DNA of 64,000 nucleotides from positions 1 to 64,000 of the forward strand of contig NZ_SSCL01000013.1 of the NCBI RefSeq assembly GCF_005876955.1. The letters run 5' to 3'. Under the pieces are notes generated by a model, which saw nothing but the letters and a program-made list of their open reading frames with translations, ran no database searches and was not told the origin of the DNA. This DNA is from Sinomonas gamaensis. Lineage in GTDB: Bacteria; Actinomycetota; Actinomycetes; Actinomycetales; Micrococcaceae. Below are positions 646-42,857 of this stretch, one piece after another; within the stretch, counting starts at the first letter, position 1; each line of letters begins with the position of its first letter. The position numbers and the translations under genes are program-made.

Positions 646-2670
646 TCAGGCGGCGACAGGCTCAGCTTCGACGGCCTCCGGGGCCTTCCTGCCAACGTAG
701 CGCTTGAGGCCGATGGTGGCCAGAGCGGTCACGACCACGCCGACGGCAATCGAGACGACCCACAGGAGGAAGTTGTCGATCGCGAAGAAGACGAAGATTC
801 CGCCGTGCGGAGCCTTGGACGTGATGCCGAAGCCCATGGACAGCGCACCCGTGATCGCGCCGCCCAGCATCGAGGCGGGGATGACGCGGAACGGGTCCGC
901 TGCGGCGAACGGGATGGCACCCTCGGAGATGAACGCTGCGCCCAGGAGCCAGGCGGCCTTGCCGTTCTCGTGCTCCGTTGCGTTGAAGTTGCGGTGGTCG
1001 AGGACGGTGGCGAGAGCCATGGCGAGCGGCGGAACCATGCCCGCGGCCATGACGGCGGCCATGATCTGCCAGGGCGCGTGGTTCGTGGCGGACGCGGCGC
1101 CGAGGCCGGCGACGGCGAACGAGTAGGCCACCTTGTTGACCGGGCCGCCGAGGTCGAAGCACATCATGAGGCCGAGGATGATGCCGAGGACGATCGCGGC
1201 AGCACCGGACATGCCGGACAGCCAGTCGTTGAGGGCCTTCGTGACGAAGGCGATCGGGCCGCCGAGGACCACGAACATGAGGCCCGACGAGATGATCGAT
1301 GCCACCAGCGGGATGATCGCCACCGGCATGAGGCCACGGAGCCAGCGAGGAGCCGAGAGCGAGGCGAGCCAGTGCGCGGTGTAACCGGCCAAGAGGCCGC
1401 CGACGATGCCGCCGAGGAAGCCGGCGCCCATGAAGCCTGCTACCGCGCCGGCGGTGAAGCCGGGGGCGATGCCGGGGCGGTCAGCGAGGGCGTACCCGAT
1501 GTAGCCGGCGAGGGCCGGGACCAGGAAGCCGATCGAGAGCGCGCCGATCTTGAACAGCACTGCGCCGAGATACGCGCCGAGCGGTCCCCAGGCCTGCGTC
1601 CCAAAGTCGGTCGGCAGGTTGAAGAGGTTGTTCTTGACCACGATCGTGTCGGCGTACTTCGTGATGTCGTACCCGCCGAGGAGGAAGCCGAGCGCGATCA
1701 GAAGGCCGCCCGCCGCGACGAACGGGATCATGTAGCTGACGCCGGTGAGCAGGGCGCGCTTCAGCTTGGCACCGGTGGACTCGCGGCCTTCAGGAGCGGC
1801 CGACGACGGACCACCCGCAGTGCCCGCGAGGCGCCGGCCGTTGGGGTCGGCTGCCGTGGCGAGGGCCTCCTCGATCATGACGCGGGGCTCGTCGATCGCG
1901 CGCTTGACCGGCGACTGAACGTACGGCTTGCCGGCGAAGCGCTGCTTGTCGCGCACGTCCACGTCAACGGCGAAGACCACTGCGTCCGCGGCGTCGATGA
2001 TCGACTGGGCCAGCGGCGTCGCGCCCGCGGAGCCCTGCGTCTCCACCTGGACGTCGATGCCCTGCTCCTTGCCCGCGGCGACCAGCGAATCGGCGGCCAT
2101 GTAGGTGTGGGCAATGCCGGTCGGGCAGGCCGTGACGGCGACGATCCGCCGAACCGTGGAGGTGGAGGTGGACGATGCGGTAGCGGCAGCGGCCGGAGCG
2201 GCTTGTGCTTCACCGCCCGTCAGGCCGAGCGCCTCATTCACGAGCCCGACGACCTCCTGGGAGGTTCGTGCCGCCCGCAGGGCTGCCGTGAAGTCCTTCT
2301 TGATGAGGCTCCGGGCGAGCTTCGCGAGGAGCTTGAGGTGCTCCTGGTCGGCCCCGGAAGGCGCTGCGATGAAGAAGACGATGTCTGCCGGGCCATCTTT
2401 GGCGCCGAAGTCGACCGGCTGCGAGAGTCGGGCCATCGCGAGGGACGGTACGGTCACGGCCTCGGAGCGGCAGTGGGGGATCGCGATCCCGCCGGGCACG
2501 CCCGTGGCCGTCTTCTGCTCGCGTGCATACGCGTCGGCGAAGAGGCCTTCGGCGCCTGTCGCGCGGCCTTCGGCGGCCACAGTCTCGGCGAGCTTCCGGA
2601 TCACGTCGGCCGAAGCGTCGCCGAGGGCGACGTCCAGCAGGACCAGCTCCGGGCTGATGAGTTCGGTCAT
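646..2670 (-). CDS. fruA: PTS fructose transporter, fused IIA-IIB-IIC subunit
   Basis: This 674-residue membrane protein imports fructose while phosphorylating it to fructose 1-phosphate. Domains read in order IIA (about 1-150) with the active His66 in GIAIPHCRSEAV, an Ala/Thr-rich linker (about 152-172), IIB (about 173-275) with the phospho-Cys182 in AVTACPTGIAHTY, and a IIC membrane domain (about 320-660) with multiple hydrophobic segments. I chose the ATG at 2668-2670 because the product then begins directly at the IIA domain; upstream in-frame codons overlap fruK and look like noise. It lies 2 bp after fruK and just before ptsI in one operon with the DeoR regulator. The fused A-B-C order is common in bacterial fructose permeases. 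Confidence 0.95.
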   Translation of the reverse strand: MTELISPELVLLDVALGDASADVIRKLAETVAAEGRATGAEGLFADAYAREQKTATGVPGGIAIPHCRSEAVTVPSLAMARLSQPVDFGAKDGPADIVFFIAAPSGADQEHLKLLAKLARSLIKKDFTAALRAARTSQEVVGLVNEALGLTGGEAQAAPAAAATASSTSTSTVRRIVAVTACPTGIAHTYMAADSLVAAGKEQGIDVQVETQGSAGATPLAQSIIDAADAVVFAVDVDVRDKQRFAGKPYVQSPVKRAIDEPRVMIEEALATAADPNGRRLAGTAGGPSSAAPEGRESTGAKLKRALLTGVSYMIPFVAAGGLLIALGFLLGGYDITKYADTIVVKNNLFNLPTDFGTQAWGPLGAYLGAVLFKIGALSIGFLVPALAGYIGYALADRPGIAPGFTAGAVAGFMGAGFLGGIVGGLLAGYTAHWLASLSAPRWLRGLMPVAIIPLVASIISSGLMFVVLGGPIAFVTKALNDWLSGMSGAAAIVLGIILGLMMCFDLGGPVNKVAYSFAVAGLGAASATNHAPWQIMAAVMAAGMVPPLAMALATVLDHRNFNATEHENGKAAWLLGAAFISEGAIPFAAADPFRVIPASMLGGAITGALSMGFGITSKAPHGGIFVFFAIDNFLLWVVSIAVGVVVTALATIGLKRYVGRKAPEAVEAEPVAA

Positions 2671-2672
2671 GG

Positions 2673-3644
2673 TCAGTCCTTCGTGAGAGCCGTGACGGTC
2701 ACGGCAGAGGGGTGGGTCTGGTTGACAGCCGGGACGGTGGATCCCGGCAGGGAGGCGGCAGCCGCACCGTGGGCGACAGCCTGGCGGAGGCGGCCTTCGG
2801 CGTCCGCTCCGGAGATGTCGGCCAGGAGGTATCCGGCCAGGGAGGAGTCGCCGGCACCAACGGTGCTGACGGCCCGGATGGGGGCATGCGTGGCGAGCCA
2901 CGCGCCGTCGGCCGTCACAAGGACGGCGCCTTTTGCGCCGAGGGTGGCGAGCACAGCGCCCACTCCGGCGTTCACGAGGGAGCGCGCGGCGGTAGCCGCC
3001 CGCTCCGGTGAGGCCTCGAGCTCCGCCGGGGTGCCGGCGTCGGGGAGGCCCACGAGTGCGGCGAGCTCGGCGAGCTCGTCCGCGTTCGGCTTGAGGAGAT
3101 CGGGCCGGCCGCCGAGCGACGCCTCAAGGGGCGCGCCGGAGGAGTCGACGGCGATCTTCGGGGCGTCGTCGCCGAACTCGGTGCGGAGCCGCTCGGCGAC
3201 GAACGTGTAGAAGGAGGCGGGGACGCCTGGCGGGAGGGAGCCCGCGAGCACCACCCAGGAGGCCCCGCTCGACTGCTTCACCAAGAGCGTCAGCAGCTGC
3301 TCCTGCTGGTCCGCGGTGAGCTCGGGACCGGGTTCGTTGACCTTTGTGGTCACGCCGCCGGGCTCGGTCAGCGTGACGTTGGAGCGGAGCGTCTGGCCGA
3401 TGGGGAGCGCCGCGAACGGGACGCCGCGCGCCTCGAGTCCCACGACCACGGGGTCGCCGGGATCGCCGGGGAGGACTGCGAGCGTGTCGAGGCCCGACGC
3501 GACGAGCGCGCGGGACACGTTGACACCCTTGCCGCCGGATTCCTGGTGCACTGCGACGGCGCGCTGCACCTCGCCCCGGAGGAGGGGCCCGCCGAGTTCG
3601 ACCGTGCGGTCGAGGCTCGGGTTGGCCGTGAGGGTCACGATCAT
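2673..3644 (-). CDS. fruK: 1-phosphofructokinase
   Basis: PfkB-family sugar kinase of 323 residues that phosphorylates fructose 1-phosphate made by FruA to fructose 1,6-bisphosphate. The N-terminal MIVTLTANPSLDRTV, the ESGGKGVNVSRAL substrate loop and the C-terminal VGAGDS anion hole with catalytic Asp near residue 266 are all present. Its start codon overlaps the stop of the upstream DeoR regulator by 4 bp, and fruA follows after 2 bp, so the three are translationally linked. No oddities seen. Confidence 0.95.
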   Translation of the reverse strand: MIVTLTANPSLDRTVELGGPLLRGEVQRAVAVHQESGGKGVNVSRALVASGLDTLAVLPGDPGDPVVVGLEARGVPFAALPIGQTLRSNVTLTEPGGVTTKVNEPGPELTADQQEQLLTLLVKQSSGASWVVLAGSLPPGVPASFYTFVAERLRTEFGDDAPKIAVDSSGAPLEASLGGRPDLLKPNADELAELAALVGLPDAGTPAELEASPERAATAARSLVNAGVGAVLATLGAKGAVLVTADGAWLATHAPIRAVSTVGAGDSSLAGYLLADISGADAEGRLRQAVAHGAAAASLPGSTVPAVNQTHPSAVTVTALTKD

Positions 3645-5612: not shown

Positions 5613-6473
5613 ATGGCGAGGAAGAATCGTGCTCTCCGCATCGCCCAGGAATCTGCCCGTGGAGCAATGTTCGACCGCTCGGGACGCCCGCGCCCCGGCC
5701 TCCACCGTGCCCTCCTGCGCGCCGTCGACGTCCAGCGCCCGCTCGTCCTGGCAAACCTGCGCCGAATGCGCCGCCAGAATCCGGGCTTCAGCCCCGCGCA
5801 ATTGAGCCGGCGGCTCGAGCGCGACTATCTGGCAGCGGTGGCCGGGGGAGGGGCAGCAGTGGGCGGGACAGCGGCGGTCCCCGGGGTGGGAACCGTCGCG
5901 TCCCTTGGCCTCTCCGCAGTCGCGACAGTGGGCTTCCTCGAGGCCACCGCGTTCTATGCGGCTTCGGTCGCCGAGCTCCACGGGATTCATCTCGAGGACC
6001 CGGAGCGGGCACGCACCACGGTCATGGCCATCATGCTCGGCGAGGAGGGAGCTGCTCTGCTCAGCAGCCTCACGGGCCACGCGCTCGGGCCCGGTGCTGG
6101 TCCCCAAGCGGCGTGGGGCGCCGCGATCAACCGCTCCGTCTCCGCTCCCGCCGTGCGGCTCATCCAGCGCCAGATCCAGGAGCGGTTCTTCAAGTGGGTC
6201 CTGCGCCGCCAAGCCGGTGCCATGCTCGGGCGGGCGCTCCCGTTCGGGGTCGGCGCAGTGGTGGGCGGTGCCGGGAATCTGGCCATGGGGCGCGCGGTCA
6301 TCCGTGCCACCCGCACCGCCTTCGGCCCAGCGCCGGGCGCTTTCCTTGAGACGGTGCCCGGCGAAGTGGTCGCCGCGCCTTCTGTTGCAGGCCTCGCGGC
6401 GGAGTCGCCGCAGCAGGTTGTGGAACGCGAGATCGAGGAGCGTCGGGCTCGGCTGCACGGGAACGGCCGCTGA
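5613..6473 (+). CDS. Hypothetical protein with glycine/alanine-rich hydrophobic core
   Basis: A 286-residue protein I cannot assign. It starts with a basic stretch (MARKNRALRIAQESARG), has a Gly/Ala-rich hydrophobic segment at about 75-110 and a second one at about 200-225 (LPFGVGAVVGGAGNLAMG), and ends in a charged tail rich in Glu and Arg. The arrangement of Gly-rich hydrophobic hairpins resembles EcsC-like proteins, but this is only an impression. Coding use and the GGGGGG ribosome site before the ATG support a real gene, and it follows the esterase by 9 bp. Confidence 0.7.
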   Translation: MARKNRALRIAQESARGAMFDRSGRPRPGLHRALLRAVDVQRPLVLANLRRMRRQNPGFSPAQLSRRLERDYLAAVAGGGAAVGGTAAVPGVGTVASLGLSAVATVGFLEATAFYAASVAELHGIHLEDPERARTTVMAIMLGEEGAALLSSLTGHALGPGAGPQAAWGAAINRSVSAPAVRLIQRQIQERFFKWVLRRQAGAMLGRALPFGVGAVVGGAGNLAMGRAVIRATRTAFGPAPGAFLETVPGEVVAAPSVAGLAAESPQQVVEREIEERRARLHGNGR

Positions 6474-30802: not shown

Positions 30803-31822
30803 ATGGCAGACCAGCGCGACAGCGAAACGGGCCACACCCTCGGGGGAGACGCCGAGCTGCCCACCGGGATCGTCGTCGGCGTGGACGGGTCGGAACACGG
30901 AAGGTGCGCCCTCATCTGGGCCGCACGGGAGGCGCAGCGCCGCCGTCGGCCACTCCACGTGGTCACGGCGTACAGCGTTCCCATCTTCGCCGCATCGGGG
31001 CTCGATGGCGGCTACTCCACCATTGACGACACCGTGATCCAGGAAGGGGCCGCGGCGGTCCTCAGGGAGGCCGTGGAATCGGTCGAGGGCTACGAGGACC
31101 TCGAACTGACCTCGTCCGTGGAGAGCGGCGACGCCGCCGGCGTGCTGCTGCAGTTCTCCGAGGCCGCCGAGCTGCTCGTCTTCGGCACGCGCGGCCGCGG
31201 CGGATTCGTCGGCCGCCTGCTGGGATCGGTGAGCAGCGCCCTGCCCGCGCACGCCAAGTGCCCCACCGTGACCGTGCCGCTGCGATTCGCCGAGCGCCTC
31301 GGCGAGCGGGTCGAACGTGAGCGGGCGCCCAAGGAGCCCGTCGTGGTGGAGCCGCTCGTCGCCGTCGGCGTCGACGGTTCTGAGCAGGCGCGTGTCGCGG
31401 TGCTGGTGGCCGCGGAGGAGGCCATGCTGCTCGGCGTGCCGCTCCGGGTGGTCTGCGCCGTGCCGCAGTTCAGCGGAAGCCTCGCGTGGGTCCCCGCACC
31501 GGTGGACCGCGAACAGCTGTTCCGCGACATCCAGGCGCAGCTCAAGGCGGGCACCGCGTGGCTCCAGAGCCACTTCCCTGATCTCGAGGTGCAGACGAGC
31601 CTCATCGACGGCGCCCCGGTGGACGTCCTGGTCGGCGTGAGCCGCACCGTGGACCTCCTGGTGCTCGGCACCCGCGGCCACGGCGGCTTCGCGGGGATGC
31701 TCCTAGGGTCGACGACGGACGGCGTCCTCCATCACACGAAGGGGCCCGTCATGGTCGTTCCCGACCACGAGGATCCGCGGCTGGCCGATCGGCCGGCGTT
31801 CGGCCCGATGCTCACCACCTAG
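30803..31822 (+). CDS. Universal stress protein with two UspA domains
   Basis: A 339-residue tandem UspA protein. Each half carries the ATP-binding pattern: VVGVDGSEHG and GTRGRGGFVGRLLGSVSSAL in the first (about 20-175), AVGVDGSEQA and GTRGHGGFAGMLLGSTTDGV in the second (about 190-325). ATP binding is therefore expected. AGGAGG at 30791-30796 lies 6 nt before the ATG. Its TAG stop shares the palindromic CTAG with the stop of the convergent NlpC/P60 gene, so the two genes touch at their ends. Confidence 0.92.
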   Translation: MADQRDSETGHTLGGDAELPTGIVVGVDGSEHGRCALIWAAREAQRRRRPLHVVTAYSVPIFAASGLDGGYSTIDDTVIQEGAAAVLREAVESVEGYEDLELTSSVESGDAAGVLLQFSEAAELLVFGTRGRGGFVGRLLGSVSSALPAHAKCPTVTVPLRFAERLGERVERERAPKEPVVVEPLVAVGVDGSEQARVAVLVAAEEAMLLGVPLRVVCAVPQFSGSLAWVPAPVDREQLFRDIQAQLKAGTAWLQSHFPDLEVQTSLIDGAPVDVLVGVSRTVDLLVLGTRGHGGFAGMLLGSTTDGVLHHTKGPVMVVPDHEDPRLADRPAFGPMLTT

Positions 31823-33303
31823 GAATAGCGGGCGACGGTCGGCCAGACGTCCGACATCCACGCGAGCGGCGTCACGGTGATGCCGTCGCTCGGGTTGAGC
31901 GCGTTGACGATCTTCCCGCTGCCCAGATAGATGCCCACATGGTAGAAGTTCCCGGCGCTCCCGAACACGACGAGGTCGCCGGGGCGGGCTTGCGAGAGCG
32001 GGACGTGGACGGGCGCCGAGTTGTACTGGTCGGTCGCTGTCCTGGGGACCCAGATGCCCGCGGCGTTGAACGAGTACCAGACGAGCCCCGAGCAGTCGAA
32101 GCCGGTGGGCCCCGTGCCGCCCCAAAGGTAGTAGTTGGGCGGGCCGACCTTGGACATGGCCACGTTGATGGCTGCCTGGATCCCGGAACCCGTGGGCTGC
32201 GGGGCTGGTGCTGGAGCCGGGGCAGGCGCTGGTGGCGCGGGAGCCGGGGCTGGTGCTGGCGCGGGTGCCGGGGCTGGTGCTGGCGCCGGTGCTGGAGCAG
32301 GGGGTGGTGCCGGGGCGGGAGCCGGAGCTGGTGCCGGCGCAGCGGGCGGCTGGTCCGTCGTCGCCAGCGGGACCCCCGCACTGCCGCCGCCGGAAGCAGC
32401 GCCCTGGGCCGCCGTCGTCGTCCCTGAGGCGGACGCCGCTGTCTGGGAGCCTCCTGCAGGCGCGGCACCGGCCCGGGCGGCCTGCGCGTTCTGGGTCGAG
32501 GCCGCGTTCTGGGTGGAAGCCGCGAGCATCGCCGCGAACTGCTGCTGCTGGCGCTGCTGCTCGAGCCCGGCCACGCGCGCCTGCTCGAGTTCGACCGTGG
32601 TGTTGCGCAGGCTGGCGAGCTGGCCCACGAGAGTCGCACGCTGCGCCGTCGTCTGCGTGACCTCCTGGCGATAGGAGGCATTGGCGGCGTCGGCCGCGGC
32701 CTTGGCCTGCTCGGCGGCCCGTGCCGCCGCGTCGGCGGCGCGTGCTGCCTCATCGGCCTGCTCGTGGAGCTGCTTCGAGGCCTCCGCCGCCTGTTGGGCC
32801 GAACTGAACGCCTCGGCCCGGCGCGCGTTGATCGATTGGAGGGCGGCGGCACGGTCCAGGACGGCGCCAGCGTCGTCGGCGACGAAGGCCTGAACGCTCG
32901 GGTTCAGACCGCCGCTTCGATAGAGCTCCCCAGCGAGATTGCCGACCTGCTCACGGGCCGCGCGGTCCGCTGCAGCCGCAGCGTCGGCGGCCGCACGGGA
33001 CTTCTCAGCCTCAGAGCGGCGGTTACCGAGAGTCACGAGGGCCATGCTGTACGCGTCGTTCGCGCGCATGGCGTCGACCGTGCTGCGCCCTAGAGCATCC
33101 TGAGCGCTCGAGATCAAGCCTTCAACTCGGGTGACCTCGGACGCTGTTGCGTCGGCGTTCGCCTTCGCGGCGTTGATTTCCTCAGGGGTGGGGATTCCAG
33201 AGTCGTCCGCTGTGGCGGGGGCCGCGGCCAAGCTGAGCACGAGCCCGGCTGCCGCGAACGCAGCTGCCCAACCCGTCGCGACCGACTTCACACGCTTCTC
33301 CAT
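31819..33303 (-). CDS. Secreted NlpC/P60 (C40) peptidoglycan peptidase
   Basis: A 494-residue cell-wall hydrolase, RipA/Csp-like in layout. A signal peptide (about 1-34, ending APATADD) is followed by a long coiled coil rich in Ala (about 40-250), a Pro-Ala linker (about 320-370), and a C-terminal NlpC/P60 domain with catalytic Cys404 in FDCSGLVWYSF and His455 in FYHVGIYLG. It probably cuts between D-Glu and the diamino acid of the stem peptide during cell separation. ATG 33303 has a GAGGTG ribosome site; the GTG at 33309 is less likely. Confidence 0.92.
   Translation of the reverse strand: MEKRVKSVATGWAAAFAAAGLVLSLAAAPATADDSGIPTPEEINAAKANADATASEVTRVEGLISSAQDALGRSTVDAMRANDAYSMALVTLGNRRSEAEKSRAAADAAAAADRAAREQVGNLAGELYRSGGLNPSVQAFVADDAGAVLDRAAALQSINARRAEAFSSAQQAAEASKQLHEQADEAARAADAAARAAEQAKAAADAANASYRQEVTQTTAQRATLVGQLASLRNTTVELEQARVAGLEQQRQQQQFAAMLAASTQNAASTQNAQAARAGAAPAGGSQTAASASGTTTAAQGAASGGGSAGVPLATTDQPPAAPAPAPAPAPAPPPAPAPAPAPAPAPAPAPAPAPAPPAPAPAPAPAPQPTGSGIQAAINVAMSKVGPPNYYLWGGTGPTGFDCSGLVWYSFNAAGIWVPRTATDQYNSAPVHVPLSQARPGDLVVFGSAGNFYHVGIYLGSGKIVNALNPSDGITVTPLAWMSDVWPTVARYS
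32203..32343. repeat. Low-complexity Pro-Ala codon repeat in the C40 peptidase gene
   Basis: About 140 bp of near-repeating GCTGGTGCTGG/GCGGGAGCCGG units encode an uninterrupted Ala-Pro ladder linking coiled coil and catalytic domain. Slippage could change its length in multiples of the codon pair. Confidence 0.8.
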
Positions 33304-33449
33304 GCACACCTCGTAGCCTCAGCGTTTCCCCGCATGAGGCTACGGACCTAGCGTCACAATTGCAACACTAGTCACAGACGTACCTTAAACAACAGCAGTG
33401 TCATTAAGGGGGATCTTGGAAGGTATCGGCGTGTCTCACCGCCTCACTG

Positions 33450-34376: not shown

Positions 34377-35717
34377 CTAGAAACCGATTGTCGGCGTGGC
34401 CCTCAACGCATTAGCTGTCCTATCTGCGATGACCTGCGCCTCGCTCCCGGAGTCAAGAATTGTGTTCCGAGCTGATTCGGAATCGATCATCACCGTCGTC
34501 ACCGCGAGACGGTCCGCAGCCTCGGTCGTCAACAGGGCGTCCACTTGACCTGAGTAACAGGAGTCGTTCGACGTGGAGCGAACGTCCATCGCCACCACGT
34601 GGTTGTTGGAGACGAAGTTGCCGGTACCCTCGACCAGCCGGATGATGACCGGCGTGGCGCCCTGCGGCCGGATGCGTTGCGAGTCGATGATCTGGGAGAA
34701 GTGGTTGCCGACGACGGAGTTGTTGCTGCCGCTCATGCGGAGGAGGCCGTTGAGGTCGTCGAGTCCGTTGTCGACTCCGAAGAAGGGCGTCCAGGGCTCA
34801 TGGTCGCGCAGGAAGTGGTTGGTGGCCACGAGGTTCTCGGAGCTGTTCGCTGCCAGGACCACCATCCCGGGGTAGAAGGAATGCAGGCGGTTATTGGTGA
34901 CGCTCGAACGCGTGACGCCTTCGAGGCGGACGCTGCTCGCGCCGCGGGGGAAGACGTTGTTCGCGGTGATGAGGAGCCCGCCGTGGTTCTGGGCGTAGAT
35001 CGAGTGGCCCTTGGGCCCTGCTCCGATGAGGTTGTCGGTGATCTTTGATGCCTGCCCCCACCCGCGCAGCTCGATGCAGCTTCCGCATTCGGCGATGAAG
35101 TTGTCGTGGATGGAGAGTGCGTCCGCGTTGTAGATGGTCAGGGCGTTCTCGAGGTAGACGAACCCCATGCCGGTGACGCGGAAGGAGTCGTTGGCGCTCG
35201 CGACATAGATGCCGGTCCTGCCGTTGACGTAGGTGTTCTCGGGGTGCATCCCCGTGCCGTCCGGGTCGAAGTGCAGGCCGTCGATGCAGAAGTTGGAGAA
35301 CTCGACCGAGCTGATCCGGGGGCTCCCGCTCCGGTTGATGTAGAAGGCGGCTCGCTCGGATTCCTCTGCGTCTCCGTCGGGGGGAAGGTCGACGAGGATA
35401 CGGCTGCCTCCGGGCCATAGCTCGTGCAGGTCGGGCCATTCGTCTTCTGGGACATTGAATCGGATGCTCGAGGACGTGAAACCGTGCCCCGAGCCTTCGA
35501 TCCTGAGGAAGCTGACGTCGATGACCACCTGGGTGCGAAGGCGGTAGTCGCCGGGCGGGATGTAGATCACCGCGCCGGGCTTTCCGCCGTCGTCCGCGTC
35601 GGCGGCGGTCTGCCGGTCCTTGACGTCGGCGATGATGCTGTTGATCACCTCCCCGACGTCCTTGGCCGGGTTGCCGACGGGCCACGTCGTCACGTCGTAG
35701 TAGTTGCTGCTTGACAT
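34377..35717 (-). CDS. GH91 family enzyme, probable cytoplasmic difructose anhydride hydrolase
   Basis: A 446-residue right-handed beta-helix protein of glycoside hydrolase family 91, which holds inulin fructotransferases and the related difructose anhydride (DFA) III hydrolase. N-terminus SNYYDVTTWPVGNP and VIYIPPGDYRLRTQVVIDV are family hallmarks. Asp205 and Glu216 in HDNFIAECGSCIELRGWG keep the 11-residue spacing of the catalytic pair known from the Bacillus fructotransferase. There is no signal peptide; GGGGAAG precedes the ATG at 35717, so the protein is cytoplasmic. Together with the GH32 and importer genes this favours DFA hydrolase (to inulobiose) over inulin lyase. DFA I versus III cannot be told. 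Confidence 0.85.
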   Translation of the reverse strand: MSSSNYYDVTTWPVGNPAKDVGEVINSIIADVKDRQTAADADDGGKPGAVIYIPPGDYRLRTQVVIDVSFLRIEGSGHGFTSSSIRFNVPEDEWPDLHELWPGGSRILVDLPPDGDAEESERAAFYINRSGSPRISSVEFSNFCIDGLHFDPDGTGMHPENTYVNGRTGIYVASANDSFRVTGMGFVYLENALTIYNADALSIHDNFIAECGSCIELRGWGQASKITDNLIGAGPKGHSIYAQNHGGLLITANNVFPRGASSVRLEGVTRSSVTNNRLHSFYPGMVVLAANSSENLVATNHFLRDHEPWTPFFGVDNGLDDLNGLLRMSGSNNSVVGNHFSQIIDSQRIRPQGATPVIIRLVEGTGNFVSNNHVVAMDVRSTSNDSCYSGQVDALLTTEAADRLAVTTVMIDSESARNTILDSGSEAQVIADRTANALRATPTIGF

Positions 35718-35745
35718 GGTTCTTCCCCTTGCAGTGTGACGGAGC

Positions 35746-37089
35746 TCAGCCGAGCGGATAGACCGTGCCATTGGCATCGCGGGACGCGAGCGTGGCGCAG
35801 CCCACCCGGGGTGCCGGGAAGGCGAGGGCGCCGAAGGAGCCAATGATTTCGACGATGGGACCGTCGACGACCACTCTCACCGGGTCGCTGCACGGAACGG
35901 ACCACTGCCCGGCGTCGGAGGTCGCCGTGAGGCTGCCTCCCGCGGGCCCCTGGGTTCGCTCAAGCCGGAACACGTTCCGGATGCCCTCGTCGAGCGAGAG
36001 GCTGCCTCCATGCGACCACTCCACATCGAAGGCGGCGCCGACCGGCATTTCGCCCCCCTCGAGTGCCGCGAGCGGTCGGCCGAACCCCCGGCGTCCCTTC
36101 AGGCCCAGCGGGAGGCGGACCTCGAGGCGGTCTCCGACGAGCGCGAGCTCATGAGGCAGGCTGTGCGCGCCAGCCCAGCCCGCGTCCGCGTCGGAGACGT
36201 TGCGGAGCCAGTAGACGATCCCCGGATTGTCGGCTTTGTCGCGGTAGACCGACCCGGCGTAGTAGGAGGGGCCATAGGTGAGCCGGCGCCAGGGCGTCTC
36301 GGCGATGAAGCGTCCATCGACGATGTTCCCGAGGGCATAGGCCTCGTAGTGCGGGCGCACCGGCTCCCAGACGGAGACGAGGAGCGCCCACTTGTCCCCG
36401 ACGCGAACGGCTTGGGGGCACTCCCAGACGGAGCCTGTCCAGACGCCGTCGGTCTCGCTCGTGTGGCGCGAGGCGAAGACGCCCTCGTAGCGCCAGGCGG
36501 CAAGGTCCTCCGAGGTCCAGGAGTAGGCGAGTGCGGTCCCGTCAGGGCGGCCGGAGCCGATGATCATGCGCCAGCAGGTCCCGTCGTGGAAGACCAGGGG
36601 GTCCCGAAACGCCACCGACTCCTCCCCTTCGGGCAGTTCGGCGACGACCGGGCCCTTGACCCAGTGCTCCCAGCTGACGCCACTGCCCGGAGCCGGACAC
36701 GCGGTGCGGGCCCTGCCGATCTCGAAGGCGTCGTCGTCAACTGAGGTGTAGAACAGGGTGCCTGTCCCGCCCGGCCCCGTCGCGATGCTGCCGGACCAGC
36801 AGCCGCCGTCGCCCTCTCCCGGCTCGAGGGCAATCGGCCCGACTCGCCACGTCAGGAGGTCGTCGGAGGTGGCGTGCCCCCATCGGCATTGCGGGGCCCA
36901 ATCGGCGGACCCGGGGATGTGCTGGTAGAAGAGGTGGTACTGGCCGCCGTGGAAGGTCAGCCCGAGAGGATCGTTGATCCATCCCGAGGGGGATGTGAAG
37001 TGGAAGGCCGGGCGCGAGAGCTTCTGTCCCGTCGCGTTGCTGGGGTCTGTGGTGACGGGACTTTCGTCGGTCGCGGAATGCTGTGGCAT
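35746..37089 (-). CDS. GH32 family beta-fructosidase (cytoplasmic)
   Basis: A 447-residue five-bladed propeller glycosidase that releases fructose from fructosides. Catalytic residues: nucleophile Asp40 in GWINDPLGL, transition-state stabiliser Asp163 in AFRDP, acid/base Glu223 in VWECPQ. The first motif reads INDPLG instead of MNDPNG. No signal peptide, so the substrate must be imported; inulobiose made by the neighbouring GH91 enzyme is the best guess, sucrose or levanbiose alternatives. It lies 28 bp upstream of the GH91 gene in the same operon. Confidence 0.9.
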   Translation of the reverse strand: MPQHSATDESPVTTDPSNATGQKLSRPAFHFTSPSGWINDPLGLTFHGGQYHLFYQHIPGSADWAPQCRWGHATSDDLLTWRVGPIALEPGEGDGGCWSGSIATGPGGTGTLFYTSVDDDAFEIGRARTACPAPGSGVSWEHWVKGPVVAELPEGEESVAFRDPLVFHDGTCWRMIIGSGRPDGTALAYSWTSEDLAAWRYEGVFASRHTSETDGVWTGSVWECPQAVRVGDKWALLVSVWEPVRPHYEAYALGNIVDGRFIAETPWRRLTYGPSYYAGSVYRDKADNPGIVYWLRNVSDADAGWAGAHSLPHELALVGDRLEVRLPLGLKGRRGFGRPLAALEGGEMPVGAAFDVEWSHGGSLSLDEGIRNVFRLERTQGPAGGSLTATSDAGQWSVPCSDPVRVVVDGPIVEIIGSFGALAFPAPRVGCATLASRDANGTVYPLG

Positions 37090-37129
37090 GAAGAGTCTCT
37101 CTGTGAATCGTTGTGTGTCGTCGGGCTTC

Positions 37130-38167
37130 TCAGGCCTGCCGGGGAGCGGCGACCGAGTCTCGGGGCACGAGCGGGCAGGGCAGCAGGACGGGCTCGAAGG
37201 GCCCCGCAGCGTGGTCGCTTCCCTCGGCGAGCATCTCGGCTGCGGTCTCGAGCGCCCAGGCACCCATCTCGTAGTGCGGCAGGGCGACCGTTGTCAGGGC
37301 GGGGAAGATGTTGGCCGCGATGATCTCCTGGTTGTCGAAACCGACGATGGAGATGTCTTGCGGGATCCGCAGCCCGAGTTCGCGGCAGGCGCGGTACGCG
37401 CCCATCGCCATGCGGTCGTTGTAGCAGAAGAGAGCCGTCGGGTGGGAGCGGGTCAAGATCTCCTTGGCGAGCTCGTAGCCTTCCGCGGTCTCCGATACCG
37501 TCTCGCCCACGAGGTTCTCGTCGTACGGAATGCGGTTTTCGGCGAGGACCTGCCGGTAGGCGGCCAGGCGCCCATGGGTGGCGGGGACGTCGTCGTTGTT
37601 GTTCAGGAAGGCGATCCGGCGGTGGCCGGCGTCGACAAGGTGCCGCACGGCGGCGACGCCGCCGCCGACCTCGTCGGGTACGACGGCGGGGAGCGCGCCC
37701 GCGGCGTCCGTGGCGTCGATGAGGACGGCGGGCACGGCGCCCAGGTTCGGGGGGAGGGTGATCCTGCGGTGGTACATGGTGGCGTACAGGATGGCATCGA
37801 CCTGCCGGTCGAGGAGTGCCTGCACGTCCGCTTGGTGCGCTGTGACGCCGTCGCCCCTCTCGGTGCTGACGATGACCAAGGTGAGGCCGTGGGCGCGCGC
37901 GGCCTCCTGGGCTCCGAGGATGATCCTGCCCGCGTGGGGCGTGGTCGCGATCTCTTCGCTCAGGAGCCCGATCAGTCCCGATCGTCGGGTCCGCAGAGCC
38001 TGTGCGACCCGGTTTGGCCCGTAGCCCAGGGACTTCGCGGCCTCGCGGACGCGGTTCCTGGTCTCCTCGGCCACACGGGTGTGCGGCGTCTCGTTGAGCA
38101 CATGCGAGACAGTCGTCACGGAGACGCCCGCAAGCTTGGCCACATCTCGGATGCCCGCGGTCTTCAC
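37130..38167 (-). CDS. LacI family regulator of the fructan/DFA locus
   Basis: A 345-residue LacI/GalR repressor. The DNA-binding domain MKTAGIRDVAKLAGVSVTTV then SHVLNE and the hinge RVAQALRTRRSGLIGLL are followed by a periplasmic-binding-protein-like sensor ending in a normal dimer interface. It sits between the ABC permease genes and the GH32-GH91 pair, all leftward, and LacI-type palindromes lie in the promoter region at 41.36-41.56 kb. The effector is presumably a fructoside or fructose. Confidence 0.9.
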   Translation of the reverse strand: MKTAGIRDVAKLAGVSVTTVSHVLNETPHTRVAEETRNRVREAAKSLGYGPNRVAQALRTRRSGLIGLLSEEIATTPHAGRIILGAQEAARAHGLTLVIVSTERGDGVTAHQADVQALLDRQVDAILYATMYHRRITLPPNLGAVPAVLIDATDAAGALPAVVPDEVGGGVAAVRHLVDAGHRRIAFLNNNDDVPATHGRLAAYRQVLAENRIPYDENLVGETVSETAEGYELAKEILTRSHPTALFCYNDRMAMGAYRACRELGLRIPQDISIVGFDNQEIIAANIFPALTTVALPHYEMGAWALETAAEMLAEGSDHAAGPFEPVLLPCPLVPRDSVAAPRQA

Positions 38168-38226
38168 ACGGATCCCTTCCCCGGGTTCTCCATGGCGTGA
38201 TTATTCCTTTCAACCGGCGCGGGGCG

Positions 38227-39066
38227 TCAGCCCTTGACCGCGCCGAGGGTGAGTCCGGCGACGATGCGCCGCTGGAGGAGGAGAGTCAGCAGGATCACCG
38301 GGACCGAATAGACGACCGCGAGTGCCGTCATCGAGCCCCAGTCCAATCCGAACTGGGTCTGGAAATTGGCGATCACCACGGGAGTCGTCTGCGCCCGCAC
38401 CGCCGTCAGGAGCAGGGCGAAGAGGAACTCGTTCCACGAGGCCAGGAACGCGAAGATCGCGGTCACGGCGACACCCCCGGACGCCACCGGGATGACGACG
38501 CGCCAGAGCGCGCCGAGGCGGGAGCACCCGTCGATCTTTGCGGCCTCCTCGAGGTCTGACGGCACTGCCTCGAAGAAGCTGGACATCAGCCAAATCGAAA
38601 GCGGCAGCGAAATGGTCGTGTGGGCGATAGCGAGAGCGATCGAGGTATCGGACAGTCCCAGGTTCCGGAAGATGGAGAGCATCGGAACGCCGACCACGAT
38701 CGGCGGGACCATACGGGTCACCAGGGCCGCGACGATGAAGAACCGGCCCGTCCGGGTCTTGTAGCGCACCACCGCATACGCAGCGGGCAGCCCCAGCGCG
38801 AGGGAGAACAGCGTGCTCAGTGAAGCCGTGACGACGCTGTTGACGAACGATGCCACGACGCCGCCCTTCGAGAGCGCGGCGACGTAGTTGGCCACGGTCC
38901 ACTGGCTCGGGAGCACCTTCGGCGGAACCGCGATGGTCTCAAGCGGCGACTTGAACGACGTCAGCAGCATGTACAGGAAGGGGAAGCCGTACAGGAGCAC
39001 GACCGCGGCGAGCAGGATCCAGAGGATCGTCTTCGAGCTGAGCTTGCGGACTTCGAGACCGTTCAT
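38227..39066 (-). CDS. Carbohydrate ABC transporter permease, MalG type
   Basis: A 279-residue inner-membrane subunit with six helices and the cytoplasmic EAA loop LEEAAKIDGCSRLGALWRVVIP that contacts the ATPase. Its start overlaps the stop of the MalF-type gene by 4 bp. With the partner and the lipoprotein it makes a CUT1 importer. No ATPase gene is found in the window, so a shared MsiK-like ATPase is likely. Confidence 0.92.
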   Translation of the reverse strand: MNGLEVRKLSSKTILWILLAAVVLLYGFPFLYMLLTSFKSPLETIAVPPKVLPSQWTVANYVAALSKGGVVASFVNSVVTASLSTLFSLALGLPAAYAVVRYKTRTGRFFIVAALVTRMVPPIVVGVPMLSIFRNLGLSDTSIALAIAHTTISLPLSIWLMSSFFEAVPSDLEEAAKIDGCSRLGALWRVVIPVASGGVAVTAIFAFLASWNEFLFALLLTAVRAQTTPVVIANFQTQFGLDWGSMTALAVVYSVPVILLTLLLQRRIVAGLTLGAVKG

Positions 39067-39920
39067 GGCTTCTCCTCACTTCCAGGACGCCAGATCGAGA
39101 GGATCGCGACGAGCGCGACCGCCAGCATGACGACGAGGTATACCGTGCCCATCGCGCTTGCCAGGCCGGGGTCGCCGAAGCGGACCATGGTCCGGTAGAT
39201 CAGGAGCGAGAGCGTCTCGGTGCTGGATTGGGGCCCGCCGTTGGTCTGGATGAGGATGACGTCGAAGGCCCGGGCGGCGTCGATCCCGCGCACGATGAGC
39301 GCGACGGCGATGACCGGGCGCAGGAGCGGCAGCAGGATCCGGAACAGGATCGTCGGGTATCGCGCACCGTCGATGCGGGCCGCCTCGATCACATCGCCTG
39401 GGATGTTCTGCAGGCCCGCGAACAGCACGAGCGTGATGAAGGAGGTGGTGAGCCAGATGTCCGGGATGGCAACCGAGAACAGGGCGATGTTCGGGTTGGA
39501 CAGCCATTGGACGTCCGAGCTCGAGTGCATGATGCCGACTCTGGTCAGCAGTTCGTTGACGATGCCGAAATTGTCGATCAGCAGGAACCGCCACAGGAGG
39601 CCCGCCACGATCGGGGCGATCATGAGCGGGTAGAGGAACACCGTCCTGAAGACCCGGGACGCATTGCCCAGTGCCGAGAAGATGAGCGCCACGGCCAGGC
39701 CGAGGACGAACTCGAGCGTCACCACGATCACCGCGTACAGCAGCGTCCGCCACGACGCGTTGAGGAAGTCAGCGTCCTGGAAGAGCCGGACGTAGTTCCC
39801 GAAGCCGACGAACTCCCGCGAGCCCCCGGCGATTGGCGCGATCTTGTAGAATCCGTCGACGACGAACTGCACGAGCGGCCAGCCGATGAAGACGGTCAGG
39901 AATGCCCCGGCGGGCAGCAT
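39063..39920 (-). CDS. Carbohydrate ABC transporter permease, MalF type
   Basis: A 285-residue permease with EAA loop IEAARIDGARYPTILFRILLP. The first start codon in this frame is ATG 39920, in the middle of helix one (MLPAGAFLTVFIGWPL). The preceding in-frame codons read RKTRVRLTDRRFAALL, clearly the missing cytoplasmic lead, but contain no ATG, GTG or TTG, so either a rare start is used or the N-terminus is slightly shortened. A strong hairpin separates it from the binding-protein gene. Confidence 0.88.
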   Translation of the reverse strand: MLPAGAFLTVFIGWPLVQFVVDGFYKIAPIAGGSREFVGFGNYVRLFQDADFLNASWRTLLYAVIVVTLEFVLGLAVALIFSALGNASRVFRTVFLYPLMIAPIVAGLLWRFLLIDNFGIVNELLTRVGIMHSSSDVQWLSNPNIALFSVAIPDIWLTTSFITLVLFAGLQNIPGDVIEAARIDGARYPTILFRILLPLLRPVIAVALIVRGIDAARAFDVILIQTNGGPQSSTETLSLLIYRTMVRFGDPGLASAMGTVYLVVMLAVALVAILSIWRPGSEEKP

Positions 39921-39981
39921 CAGCAGGGCCGCGAAGCGGCGGTCGGTCAGACGGACCCGTGTCTTTCTTGCCGGCGACCGC

Positions 39982-40008
39982 CGCGGGTGGCCGGTGAGGC
40001 CACCCGCG
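39982..40008. promoter_or_regulatory. Intercistronic hairpin between binding-protein and permease genes
   Basis: CGCGGGTGGCC (39982-39992) and GGCCACCCGCG (39998-40008) form an 11-bp stem with a GGTGA loop, 11 bp past the binding-protein stop. Such hairpins often keep the binding protein in excess over the permeases by partial termination or 3' end protection. Confidence 0.7.
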
Positions 40009-40018
40009 CGGTCCGCGA

Positions 40019-41290
40019 CTACTTGACTAGCGATTGGACCTGCTCCTTCGCAGCGTTCAGCAGGGCCTGGTCATCGGCCCCTGGCTGGAGCGACTTCTGG
40101 ATCATCGGCACTAGCACGGTGTCCACGATCTGCTGCCACTTCGGCGTTGCCGGACGTGGGATCGTGTTCGGGGCATTGAGCGTGTCGATCAGCGGCTTGT
40201 AGTTCTCATAGCCGGGCTGGTTCTCGTACTTCGAGAACGCCGACTTGCGGGCCACGAGGCCCAGGGAGGTCTGCGCCGCAAGCTCGTTGTGGTCGTAGGC
40301 GAACTTCACGAAGTCCGACGCGGCCTGCTGCTGCCCTCTGGCCTTGGGCACCGAGAGGTACCACGCGCCCGGGACACCGGCGACGCCGCCTGGGCCGGCG
40401 ATCATCTCGGCGACTCCGACCTTGCCGTTGACCGCGGCGTCCTTGGGGATCGAGCGGTACTCGTGGCCCCAGAACAGCGACATTGCGGTCTTGCCTTGGT
40501 TGAAGAGGTTCTGGGCGGCAGCCCAGTCGACCTGAGCGGCACCCGGAGGGGCGTACTTGGCCAGGCTGTCGTCGAACTGGAGGGCCTTGAGGCTGTTCGC
40601 ATCGCCAAGGGTGACCTTCGAGCCGTCGTTGCTCACGACCATCGGCTGCTCGCCCGTCTGCGACAGCATCGCGAGGTACTCGGTCTCTACGGCACCCTTC
40701 ATGTCGGTGCCGTACATCCCGTCCTTGGTGAAGAACTGCGCCGCATCGAGGTACTGCTGCCACGTCGTCGGCGGCTTGAGGTCATAGCCGTACTTGGCCT
40801 TGAAGGCGGCCTGGTTGGCGGAGTCGTTGAAGAGGTCCTTGCGGTAGTAGAGGATCTCCGAGTTGGTCCACACCGGCATTCCGATGTACTTCCCGCCGAC
40901 GTTCGCCTCCTTGACCAGCGACGGGAACAGGTCGTTCTTCACATCATCGGTGAAGAGGCTGTCCAGCGGCGCGACCCCGTCCTTGAAGGCGGACAGCCAC
41001 ACCGCGTCCAGCGCGGCGACGTCGAACGAGACGCTGCCGGAGGTGAACTCGCTGTTGAGCCTGTTGTACAGGCCGTCGTAGGGCAGCTCGACGAAGGAGA
41101 CTTTCGTGCCCGTTTCCTTGGTGAACTCGTCTGCGATCGGCTGGAGCTCGGCGTGGCCGCCGGCCTCCACGAGGACCGTGATGGACTTCCCCGACGCCGA
41201 CGACGTGCTGCCGCCGACGCCGCAGCCGCTCATCGCGATGGCGGCGGTCGTGGCGAGCGCTGCCGCCACGGCGAGTTTCTTGCGAAGCAT
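40019..41290 (-). CDS. Sugar ABC transporter substrate-binding lipoprotein
   Basis: A 423-residue extracellular binding protein of the CUT1 class. The signal sequence MLRKKLAVAAALATTAAIAM runs into a lipobox around SGCGVGG, where the Cys is lipidated. The mature part has the two-lobed type with GHAELQPIADEFTKETGTKV at the start. First gene of the transport and fructosidase operon read leftward. The likely ligand, given the cytoplasmic GH91 and GH32, is difructose anhydride or a short fructo-oligosaccharide; that is inference. Confidence 0.9.
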   Translation of the reverse strand: MLRKKLAVAAALATTAAIAMSGCGVGGSTSSASGKSITVLVEAGGHAELQPIADEFTKETGTKVSFVELPYDGLYNRLNSEFTSGSVSFDVAALDAVWLSAFKDGVAPLDSLFTDDVKNDLFPSLVKEANVGGKYIGMPVWTNSEILYYRKDLFNDSANQAAFKAKYGYDLKPPTTWQQYLDAAQFFTKDGMYGTDMKGAVETEYLAMLSQTGEQPMVVSNDGSKVTLGDANSLKALQFDDSLAKYAPPGAAQVDWAAAQNLFNQGKTAMSLFWGHEYRSIPKDAAVNGKVGVAEMIAGPGGVAGVPGAWYLSVPKARGQQQAASDFVKFAYDHNELAAQTSLGLVARKSAFSKYENQPGYENYKPLIDTLNAPNTIPRPATPKWQQIVDTVLVPMIQKSLQPGADDQALLNAAKEQVQSLVK

Positions 41291-41362
41291 CCTTACTCCG
41301 AATCTTCCTCTGCAGTGGGGGGTCACTGCTGTCTGTGCGAACTTCAGGGGGATCAGACGCTT

Positions 41363-41380
41363 TGAGAAAACGTATTGGCA
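41363..41380. promoter_or_regulatory. LacI-type operator candidate 1
   Basis: TGAGAAAACGTATTGGCA is a partly symmetric 18-mer centred on CG, 73 bp upstream of the binding-protein start. It overlaps candidate 2, with centres 13 bp apart. Confidence 0.5.
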
Positions 41381-41393
41381 AAACGTCTTGGCA
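41376..41393. promoter_or_regulatory. LacI-type operator candidate 2
   Basis: TGGCAAAACGTCTTGGCA matches its own reverse complement at 14 of 18 positions and has the central CG of LacI-family sites. It lies between the leftward importer operon and the rightward GH91 pseudogene and probably controls both directions. Confidence 0.6.
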
Positions 41394-41538
41394 TGACGCT
41401 AGAGCTGCCGGAAGCGCACCGTCAAGTGCCAAAACCAGCCAAAATCTCCGCTCGCTCGGCCAAACTTTTTTGGCTTCCCGAGCCGTCTCGGGGGCGGTTG
41501 ACGGCCCTCCTTCCCATCCCAAAAGTGACGCATGCCGC

Positions 41539-41556
41539 AGACAAATCGTTTTGGCA
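41539..41556. promoter_or_regulatory. LacI-type operator candidate 3
   Basis: AGACAAATCGTTTTGGCA shares the CAAA-n-CG-n-TTTG core of the other two sites and lies 23 bp before the GTG start of the secreted GH91 pseudogene, consistent with former coregulation of that gene. Confidence 0.55.
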
Positions 41557-41578
41557 TTTTGGCAGTCGAAAGGATGTC

Positions 41579-41967
41579 GTGCCATTTATGACCGCACCAT
41601 CAGCGCCACGGGCTTGGGCCAGACGGGAAGTGCTGCAAGCGGCCGTGCTGTCCCTCGCTGCCGTTCCGCTCGCTGCGACGGCGACTGTGCCAGCGGCCGC
41701 GGGTGTTCCCGCCACCCCCGCGACGGAGCCGGCAGCTCTCGCTGCTGACTACCGCAGCATCATCGGCGTCCTCTGACCCATCGAGAGATAGGAACATCGA
41801 CACAGTGACCACCGTCTACGACGTCACGACCTGGAGCGTCCCGGGAAACCCCTCCGCCTCTCCCTACAACGACATCGGCCTCGTGATCAACAGCATCATC
41901 GCCGACATCAAATCCCAGCAGACGAGCCAAGCGTCCAAGCCCGGCGGCGTCATCTACATCCCGCCGC
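41579..41967 (+). pseudogene. Broken secreted GH91 inulin fructotransferase
   Basis: From GTG 41579 (or ATG 41588) the frame gives a twin-arginine-like signal peptide, WARREVLQAAVLSLAAVPLA, and a mature start DYRSIIGVL, then TGA at 41774. One frame over the protein resumes as DPSRDRNIDTVTTVYDVTTW, SVPGNPSASPYNDIGLVINS, IIADIKSQQT to VIYIPP, the exact N-terminus of a GH91 enzyme like the one at 34377-35717. Deleting one T near 41774 would join the frames. Homology stops at 41966, so over 80 percent of the enzyme, with the catalytic Asp and Glu, is gone. Two separate lesions make this a clear pseudogene. Confidence 0.88.
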
Positions 41968-42033
41968 GCGAGCAGATGGGTCCTGGTGCGCCGCCATCGC
42001 CCGGAGTGCGCCAGGGCTGTTGAGAGTAGGGTG

Positions 42034-42083: not shown

Positions 42084-42857
42084 GTGACGGACTCGGAGCG
42101 CTCTGACCCGACGCGTGAGAGTTCGGTGCTTCTGCGGGGTCTGGCGATTCTGGGGTGCTTCGACAGCCCCATGCCGGTTATTACGGCCGGGGCCATCGTC
42201 AAGCAGACGGGCCTTCCTCCGGCGACGGTGCACCGAATTCTGAGCATCCTCATCGAGGGAGGGGCGGTGGAAAGGGTGTCCCGGGGCTCGTACCGGTTGG
42301 GTTTGAAGATGTGGCGTCTTGGCTCGTCTGTTCCGCAGGCCCGGGTCCTCCGTGACGTTGCCCTGCCGTTCTTGGAGGATCTCTACGAGACTACTCACGA
42401 GGTTGTCCATCTGGCGGTGCGGGACGGTCTTGAAACCCTGTACATCGAGAAGATCTCGGGACGTGGCGCCGTCTCGGTCACGTCCCGCGTCGGTCGACGC
42501 CTTCCGCTTCATGCCACCGGTCCGGGAAAGGTCCTTCTGGCCTATGGGCCCCCGGAGGTCTTCGATCAGCTTGTGGCCCGGGGGCTACCCGCGCTCACTC
42601 CGCAGACGATCACGGACCCTGACGCGATTCGGCGTTCCATGGCGGAAATAAGGCGGTCCGGCTACGCGCTCTCGCGAGAAGAGTCATCGGCAGGGACCGC
42701 CTCGGTCGCCGCCCCGATCTTCGGCTCGCTGCGCGAGATCGTTGCCAGCGTCTCGGTGGTGGTTCCGGCGTCAACGTTCAATCCCCGGACGCTTGCGCCC
42801 GTCGTCAGGGCCGTGGCGCTGGGGATATCCCGCGGCATGGGAGCTCCGTCACGCTGA
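42084..42857 (+). CDS. IclR family regulator, probably of the mandelate/benzoylformate genes
   Basis: A 257-residue IclR regulator starting at GTG 42084. The winged helix (about 15-75) reads SVLLRGLAILGCFDSPMPVI then TGLPPATVHRILSILIEGGA; the effector domain has LHATGPGKVLLAYGPPEV and GYALSREESSAGTASVAAPI. IclR proteins often control aromatic acid catabolism. It is convergent with the MFS gene of the benzoylformate cluster, from which it is parted by a strong terminator, so the assignment to that cluster is by proximity. Confidence 0.88.
   Translation: MTDSERSDPTRESSVLLRGLAILGCFDSPMPVITAGAIVKQTGLPPATVHRILSILIEGGAVERVSRGSYRLGLKMWRLGSSVPQARVLRDVALPFLEDLYETTHEVVHLAVRDGLETLYIEKISGRGAVSVTSRVGRRLPLHATGPGKVLLAYGPPEVFDQLVARGLPALTPQTITDPDAIRRSMAEIRRSGYALSREESSAGTASVAAPIFGSLREIVASVSVVVPASTFNPRTLAPVVRAVALGISRGMGAPSR

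Follow-up and report, generated by a model that had tools for sequence, protein, structure and literature searches.

The stretch of DNA analysed here, referred to as the window, comprises 64,000 nucleotides (nt) of Sinomonas gamaensis and forms the start of contig C5 in a host genome of 4.32 Mb and 35 contigs. It carries an operon predicted to import and hydrolyse difructose anhydride III (DFA-III). Next to this operon, on the opposite strand, lie a small gene with a twin-arginine translocation (Tat)-like signal and the remnant of a second gene of the glycoside hydrolase family GH91 (Table 1). The small gene is intact and belongs to a conserved two-gene unit, in which it is proposed to act as an export escort for a GH91 enzyme without a signal of its own. 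Signals were judged by eye throughout, without a predictor.

Table 1. Features of the window discussed in the text
Feature	Position	Strand	Basis
Intact small gene with Tat signal (62 codons; C-terminus DYRSIIGVL), proposed as escort	41588..41776	+	Relatives; profile E 1.2e-11 (own peptide part of the profile)
Signal-less second GH91, 5' remnant, 56 codons from a likely GTG at 41805	41805..41972	+	Similarity
GH91, DFA-III hydrolase type, 446 amino acids, no signal seen	34377..35717	-	Match to 5zks_A, clade placement
GH32 beta-fructosidase, no signal seen	35746..37089	-	PF00251, E 2.9e-57
LacI-family regulator	37130..38167	-	PF00356, PF13377
ATP-binding cassette (ABC) sugar permease	38227..39066	-	PF00528
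ABC sugar permease	39063..39920	-	PF00528
ABC solute-binding lipoprotein	40019..41290	-	PF01547
Operator-like repeat, two copies before the ABC operon	41366..41394		81% and reference copy, repeat family D1
Operator-like repeat, third copy before the small Tat gene	41542..41557		Repeat family D1; putative function
IclR-family regulator, directly past the break, outside the system	42084..42857	+	PF01614, PF09339

A small gene upstream of signal-less GH91 enzymes

An original prediction, made from the sequence alone, described the second GH91 as destroyed. This was borne out, as only approximately residues 2 to 56 of 401 are left (41808-41972), and the frame continues to 42023 in unrelated sequence. 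The remnant is 65% identical to the operon GH91 over residues 5 to 57 and 75% identical to the second GH91 of genome G008 (Sinomonas mesophila) over residues 2 to 56. A sequencing error is an unlikely cause of the loss, the remainder of the gene not being found in the genome. The same prediction placed the Tat-like signal within the frame of the GH91 itself. The signal was found instead in a separate open reading frame (ORF) with its own start and stop, 28 nt away from the remnant and in a different frame. Since the same layout precedes intact GH91s in relatives, the small ORF is considered an intact, conserved gene of which only the GH91 partner is broken. The notion of a dead secreted half thus applies to the enzyme, while the signal belongs to a separate, intact gene of a two-gene unit and is not a frameshifted N-terminus. 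A comparable case is locus L019 of A. humicola, in which the escort is intact and the GH91 ends after about 52 codons, running into other sequence (5940-6145). The breaks in L019 and in the window, in different genera, fall at almost the same codon and appear to have arisen independently.

In relatives, the small gene comprises 53 to 77 codons, with starts inferred, and encodes a Tat-like signal, a proline/alanine-rich linker, and a conserved C-terminus. The latter often conforms to [HY]xx[IL][IV]G[VLM]L-COOH, with endings such as IIGVL, IVGLL, and VPVGLL. Two other Sinomonas genomes, namely Sinomonas mesophila MPKL 26 (L039) and Sinomonas sp. ASV322 (L056), carry an intact second GH91 without its own signal and a separate small ORF with an arginine pair (RR) signal upstream of it. 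Their small ORFs end in GGYARIVGML and PPYHAIVGVL, compared with DYRSIIGVL in the window.

The small ORF is a real gene under purifying selection. Shine-Dalgarno-like sequences precede the chosen starts, and the rate of nonsynonymous substitution is below that of synonymous substitution in all 22 pairs that share 70% identity or more; as these come from 12 sequences, they are not independent. None of the 22 aligned peptides departs from the RR pair, the tail glycine, or the last leucine; this glycine is encoded by GGC, GGT, GGA, and GGG, and the gene is terminated by TGA, TAG, or TAA. The gap to the GH91 ranges from 11 to 211 nt, with an offset of 0, 1, or 2 in 7, 5, and 12 of 24 cases, respectively. 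Because gap and frame vary in this way, a programmed frameshift or stop read-through joining both ORFs is excluded. The peptide of the window has no match in Pfam, and none of five small peptides scanned against NCBIfam reaches any cut-off. In these five, the MelC1 model NF047833 (cut-off 120) scores 12.9 bits in one and has no match in the other four, and the formate dehydrogenase region TAT target model TIGR02811 (cut-off 48.45) scores 24.1 bits at best (L122).

The coupling of the small gene to signal-less GH91s was examined in the best 80 of 243 loci in named genomes, all of which contain the hydrolase type and which overlap with the family sample described below. Of the 80 loci, 33 contain a second GH91 whose 5' end is present. 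Wherever this enzyme is signal-less, a small ORF accompanies it (18 of 18 loci: L014, L015, L019, L025, L033, L034, L036, L039, L050, L056, L058, L061, L065, L069, L071, L046, L062, and L079). Fifteen of the 80 loci, including L037 and L059, encode a second GH91 with a fused, in-frame Tat-like signal, and none of these 15 has a small ORF. A second GH91 with neither a signal nor a small ORF was not found among the 33. In L046, a locus from a Subtercola metagenome bin, one escort gene precedes two GH91s in tandem (912-3368), the latter copy of which contains a chance RR and was not counted as fused. In the second GH91 of L014 (1093-2292), the sequence CVKL replaces the C[VI]EL, or a similar sequence, of the others in the alignment; the expected catalytic glutamate seems to be lost, and the copy is perhaps inactive.

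A profile of 22 small peptides was run against 395 genomes of the family, with 15 candidates scored per genome. Among the matches listed, it reaches the last position in 17 genomes, with E values from 9.7e-22 to 1.2e-11, and these 17 are exactly the genomes that contain the 5' end of a second GH91 lacking a signal, whether whole or as a remnant; in 14 of the 17, the genome's own or an identical peptide is part of the profile, while G159, G368, and G392 have only close relatives in it. The next matches listed begin at E 5.7e-7 and for the most part align with the signal portion of longer frames. General Tat proteins were considered as a source of the strong matches and discarded, as they occur only in this range of weaker matches. 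The fused type is without a small gene in all ten cases of the family sample, which shares members with the 80 loci.

A motif scan required RR, a hydrophobic stretch, and the C-terminus [ILVP][IV]G[VLM][LI] followed by a stop. Applied to both strands of the 80 loci (1.607 Mb), it gave 17 matches, all located before signal-less GH91s or remnants, and no false positives. Two of the matches (L062 and L079) led to additional GH91s, and L071, ending in LLGVL, escaped the pattern. A wider role of the tag was rejected after inspection of L146 and L148, both weak matches, whose small Tat ORFs lack the conserved C-terminus.

The pairing extends beyond the family. In a genus of another family, the small gene precedes five of five intact GH91s (G774, G700, G931, G982, and G789) and ends in YxxIVG[LV]L. 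In the same genus, the remnant G1061 has kept the tail, with no signal visible, and the fragments G933 and G803 have no 5' end. A sample of 396 genomes of the order added three more with the small gene (G1281, G1205, and G1428) from two further families. A GH91 copy on an Arthrobacter megaplasmid is likewise accompanied by it.

Proposed export and its alternatives

The favoured reading, to which a probability of roughly 0.7 is assigned, is that a DFA-III import and hydrolysis operon stands beside the remnant of a two-gene Tat-escort fructotransferase unit, in a cell that feeds on the DFA-III of its neighbours. With its C-terminus, the small peptide would bind the folded signal-less GH91 in the cytoplasm, the conserved tail probably serving as the dock. 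The signal of the small peptide would then carry the complex through the Tat pore, and signal peptidase would free a peptide of perhaps 25 to 30 residues together with the enzyme. TatC is present. It is only slightly favoured over its opposite that such a minimal escort, consisting of a signal and a docking tag of about eight residues, exports a whole glycoside hydrolase, and that the two-gene state is old, with fused fructotransferases and cytoplasmic hydrolases derived from it by fusion or loss. In a tree of 49 GH91s with a midpoint root, the escort-type enzymes are not one clade (three changes), the fused group is one clade (support 100/100), and the hydrolases cluster with some of the escort-type enzymes (100/98). 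Under this root, the escort state would come first, followed by fusion and loss. This order is tentative, given the root, bootstrap values that had not settled, and three long rows (L174, L163_Oa, and L171). The hydrolase ends in TIGF and the escort in LIGVL, conceivably a shared tail.

The operator-like repeat precedes both divergent units, the import operon and the escort gene. Its core 11-mer, AWTCGTTTTGG, occurs in 43 of 179 fetched loci, some of which represent the same place twice, and is also located near several fused-signal fructotransferases.

Several observations weigh against the proposed export. One weak profile match (G194, E 6.5e-6) reaches position 62 within a frame of 270 residues, so the tail alone is not wholly specific, and most profile matches come from the genomes that built the profile. 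The motif was likewise learnt from 15 of its 17 matches, and the scan therefore tests false positives more than sensitivity. A divergent GH91 of 36% identity from the order sample (L174; genome G1342, with 90% completeness and 7% contamination) lacks both a signal and a small gene, and an Agrobacterium GH91 without a signal leaves too little space upstream for an escort. Two AlphaFold models of in-frame read-throughs show a well-folded GH91 with the peptide unplaced, at a predicted local distance difference test score (pLDDT) of approximately 25 to 38. The signal helix itself is unformed in both; the models are of monomers only, and the alignments folded (A5 and A6) cover the peptide with two and three rows and are without rows of lone small peptides. 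In favour of the proposal, the group nearest the solved structure 8hsn, which presumably produces DFA-I, is signal-less, has a length of 393 to 394 residues, and carries the small gene. Arthrobacter globiformis S14-3 has a DFA-I-forming enzyme of nearly this length (392 residues), which was judged a monomer and was found in the culture supernatant although its gene has no signal peptide (PMC5448860, Haraguchi). The accessible text of that paper names no small gene, and the likeness concerns length and the missing signal.

Agrobacterium and rhizobial plasmids carry GH91s, several of them annotated as NosD domain proteins. At one Agrobacterium locus (L163, 2520-5182), a hydrolase-type and a second GH91 stand in tandem beside a GH32 and a kinase; neither GH91 shows a signal by eye, and the two are too close together for an escort gene in between.

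The different frames of signal ORF and remnant, only 28 nt apart, together with the truncation of the GH91, could be explained by a frameshift in what was once a single secreted enzyme. This is very improbable, as many genomes show the same separation, with a stop codon, ahead of GH91s that are intact, in every relative frame and with the whole range of gaps, and purifying selection acts on the small ORF as far as its own stop; intact two-gene units in relatives contradict it. The short length of the ORF, its upstream position, and its close spacing in many loci would also suit a leader that tunes the translation or transcription of the GH91, with an incidental Tat-like sequence. Such a role is quite improbable, since RR, tail glycine, and last leucine are retained despite free synonymous change, whereas distance and frame are not conserved. 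Somewhat less improbable, but still doubtful, is an independent exported peptide, for instance a signal molecule, an inhibitor, or a stabiliser, that acts with the GH91 outside the cell, the enzyme leaving by another route or by lysis. A short mature part, a strongly conserved C-terminus, and the position adjoining a GH91 fit this explanation, yet it leaves open why the signal-less GH91s have the small gene and the fused ones do not.

If true, the escort would explain the exit of DFA-I-forming and related fructotransferases, including the one published as extracellular yet signal-less. To our knowledge, it would be the smallest natural Tat escort. The separable tag gene would then set where a GH91 works, and the tag could possibly be used for secreting folded proteins. 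An extracellular enzyme can pass for a cytoplasmic one when its signal is a tiny neighbouring gene, and an apparently frameshifted signal may be no frameshift at all.

Predicted import, hydrolysis and scavenging

The operon was originally described as encoding an importer, a LacI regulator, a GH32, and a GH91, with both enzymes lacking a signal. Similarity searches and inspection by eye agree with this description. All of its genes (34377-41290) lie on one strand and are open. In the translated solute-binding protein, SGCG is taken to be lipobox-like. The start of the GH32 was set at MPQHSATDE by choice, and its best structural match is the beta-fructosidase 1uyp (E 5.3e-46). No ATPase gene was noticed among the operon genes, the rest of the genome not having been searched for one. 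Actinobacteria habitually use a shared ABC ATPase encoded elsewhere, which is likely for this importer as well. Outside the operon, a large ORF (31819-33309) contains a long proline/alanine repeat followed by a C-terminal stretch that resembles, by eye, an NlpC/P60-like cell-wall hydrolase.

The operon GH91 matches the DFA-III hydrolase 5zks_A over residues 1 to 446 (E 3.2e-249, 830 bits), compared with 374 and 359 bits for the fructotransferases 9j4i and 2inu. In the GH91 tree it falls within the DFA-III hydrolase clade (support 100/100). The C-terminal lid insert is conserved at approximately residues 377 to 406, including the cysteine of DSC that is mutated (C387A) in 5zl5. Asp205 and Glu216, counted in the alignment, form an acidic pair 11 residues apart, and their equivalence to Asp207 and Glu218 of the A. 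aurescens enzyme, a trimer (PMC4640833), is inferred from spacing and context. By family assignment, the operon GH91 is thus closely related to DFA-III hydrolases and predicted to be one. Following ABC import, it would open DFA-III to inulobiose, which the GH32 would split to fructose, under LacI control. The pathway from DFA-III via inulobiose to fructose is already known (PMC4640833, PMC11538131).

Whether the cell depends on DFA released by others, as the original prediction suggested, hinges on further secreted enzymes. A genome search with the operon GH91 found two places, namely itself and the remnant (41811-41972). The GH32 search also found two, the operon copy and one on contig C30 that starts with MTSTTTRDRYRPRLHYTP, has no signal, and is located behind a permease and an apparent sugar kinase. 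No intact second GH91 and no signal-bearing GH32 were thus found in the host genome, these being the fructanase families sought, and the secreted enzyme whose discovery would have refuted the scavenger reading was not found in them. With the GH91 cargo cut off after 56 codons, GH91-based conversion of inulin to DFA would be lost to the cell, which probably feeds on DFA-III produced by its neighbours. In Blautia, supplied DFA-III is used by means of a GH91 hydrolase, a GH32, and ABC import (PMC11538131).

The family sample of 395 genomes, with at most four GH91 candidates scored per genome and types assigned by score band, places this state in context. GH91 occurs in 48 genomes and the hydrolase type in 47; the remaining genome, G226, has an escort-type GH91 alone. 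An intact second GH91 is present in 23 of the 47 hydrolase-bearing genomes (13 of escort type and 10 of fused type). The other 24 show none, a count restricted to GH91 enzymes: in 20 no second GH91 was found, G000 and G392 hold 5' remnants, G387 a 3' fragment, and G302 a truncated copy (275 of 401 residues). Import and opening without a second enzyme find support in the family assignment and the genome searches, but are not unusual among relatives. The scavenger reading is plausible, yet ordinary. That part of the original prediction is unremarkable and one of its details is wrong, and it is the wrong detail that opens onto the conserved two-gene unit.

The operon could instead be a decaying leftover, or serve inulobiose or other short fructans. 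The trait does come and go within the genus, as a match to the operon GH91 was found in 3 of 15 genomes and in none of the other 12. This explanation is unlikely, although less so than the rivals concerning the small gene, because every operon gene is open and the GH91 retains the hydrolase lid and the expected catalytic acidic residues.

Comparison with known systems

The nearest characterised counterparts of the unit, as far as the accessible texts describe them, share its layout of a signal partner and a signal-less enzyme. In Streptomyces, the signal-less tyrosinase MelC2 hitchhikes on the small Tat protein MelC1 (PMC2758597), and in HybO/HybC and PaoABC a partner with a Tat signal carries a signal-less enzyme (PMC4273604). 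The gamma subunit of FAD-glucose dehydrogenase is a further Tat-signal partner, with 121 residues when mature (PMC6719666). In contrast to this subunit, the mature GH91 escort would have perhaps 25 to 30 residues, mostly linker, and unlike MelC1 itself, it does not match the MelC1 profile. Within open PMC papers, subscription papers being outside the scope, no description of such a small gene was recognised. The conserved two-gene unit, presumably serving export, is apparently undescribed.

The DFA-III hydrolase clusters of Arthrobacter and Blautia share the GH91 hydrolase with the window, and the Blautia cluster, in its accessible description, also has the adjoining GH32 and ABC importer. Compared with these, the window adds the LacI gene and the divergent remnant of the putatively secreted GH91 unit. 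The fused-signal fructotransferase that forms DFA-III is likewise a GH91, is expected to be secreted, and, in 15 of the 80 loci, neighbours the same type of hydrolase. These enzymes have an in-frame Tat-like signal, form a separate clade (100/100), and have no small gene, whereas the remnant of the window and its nearest relatives have the signal in a separate ORF.

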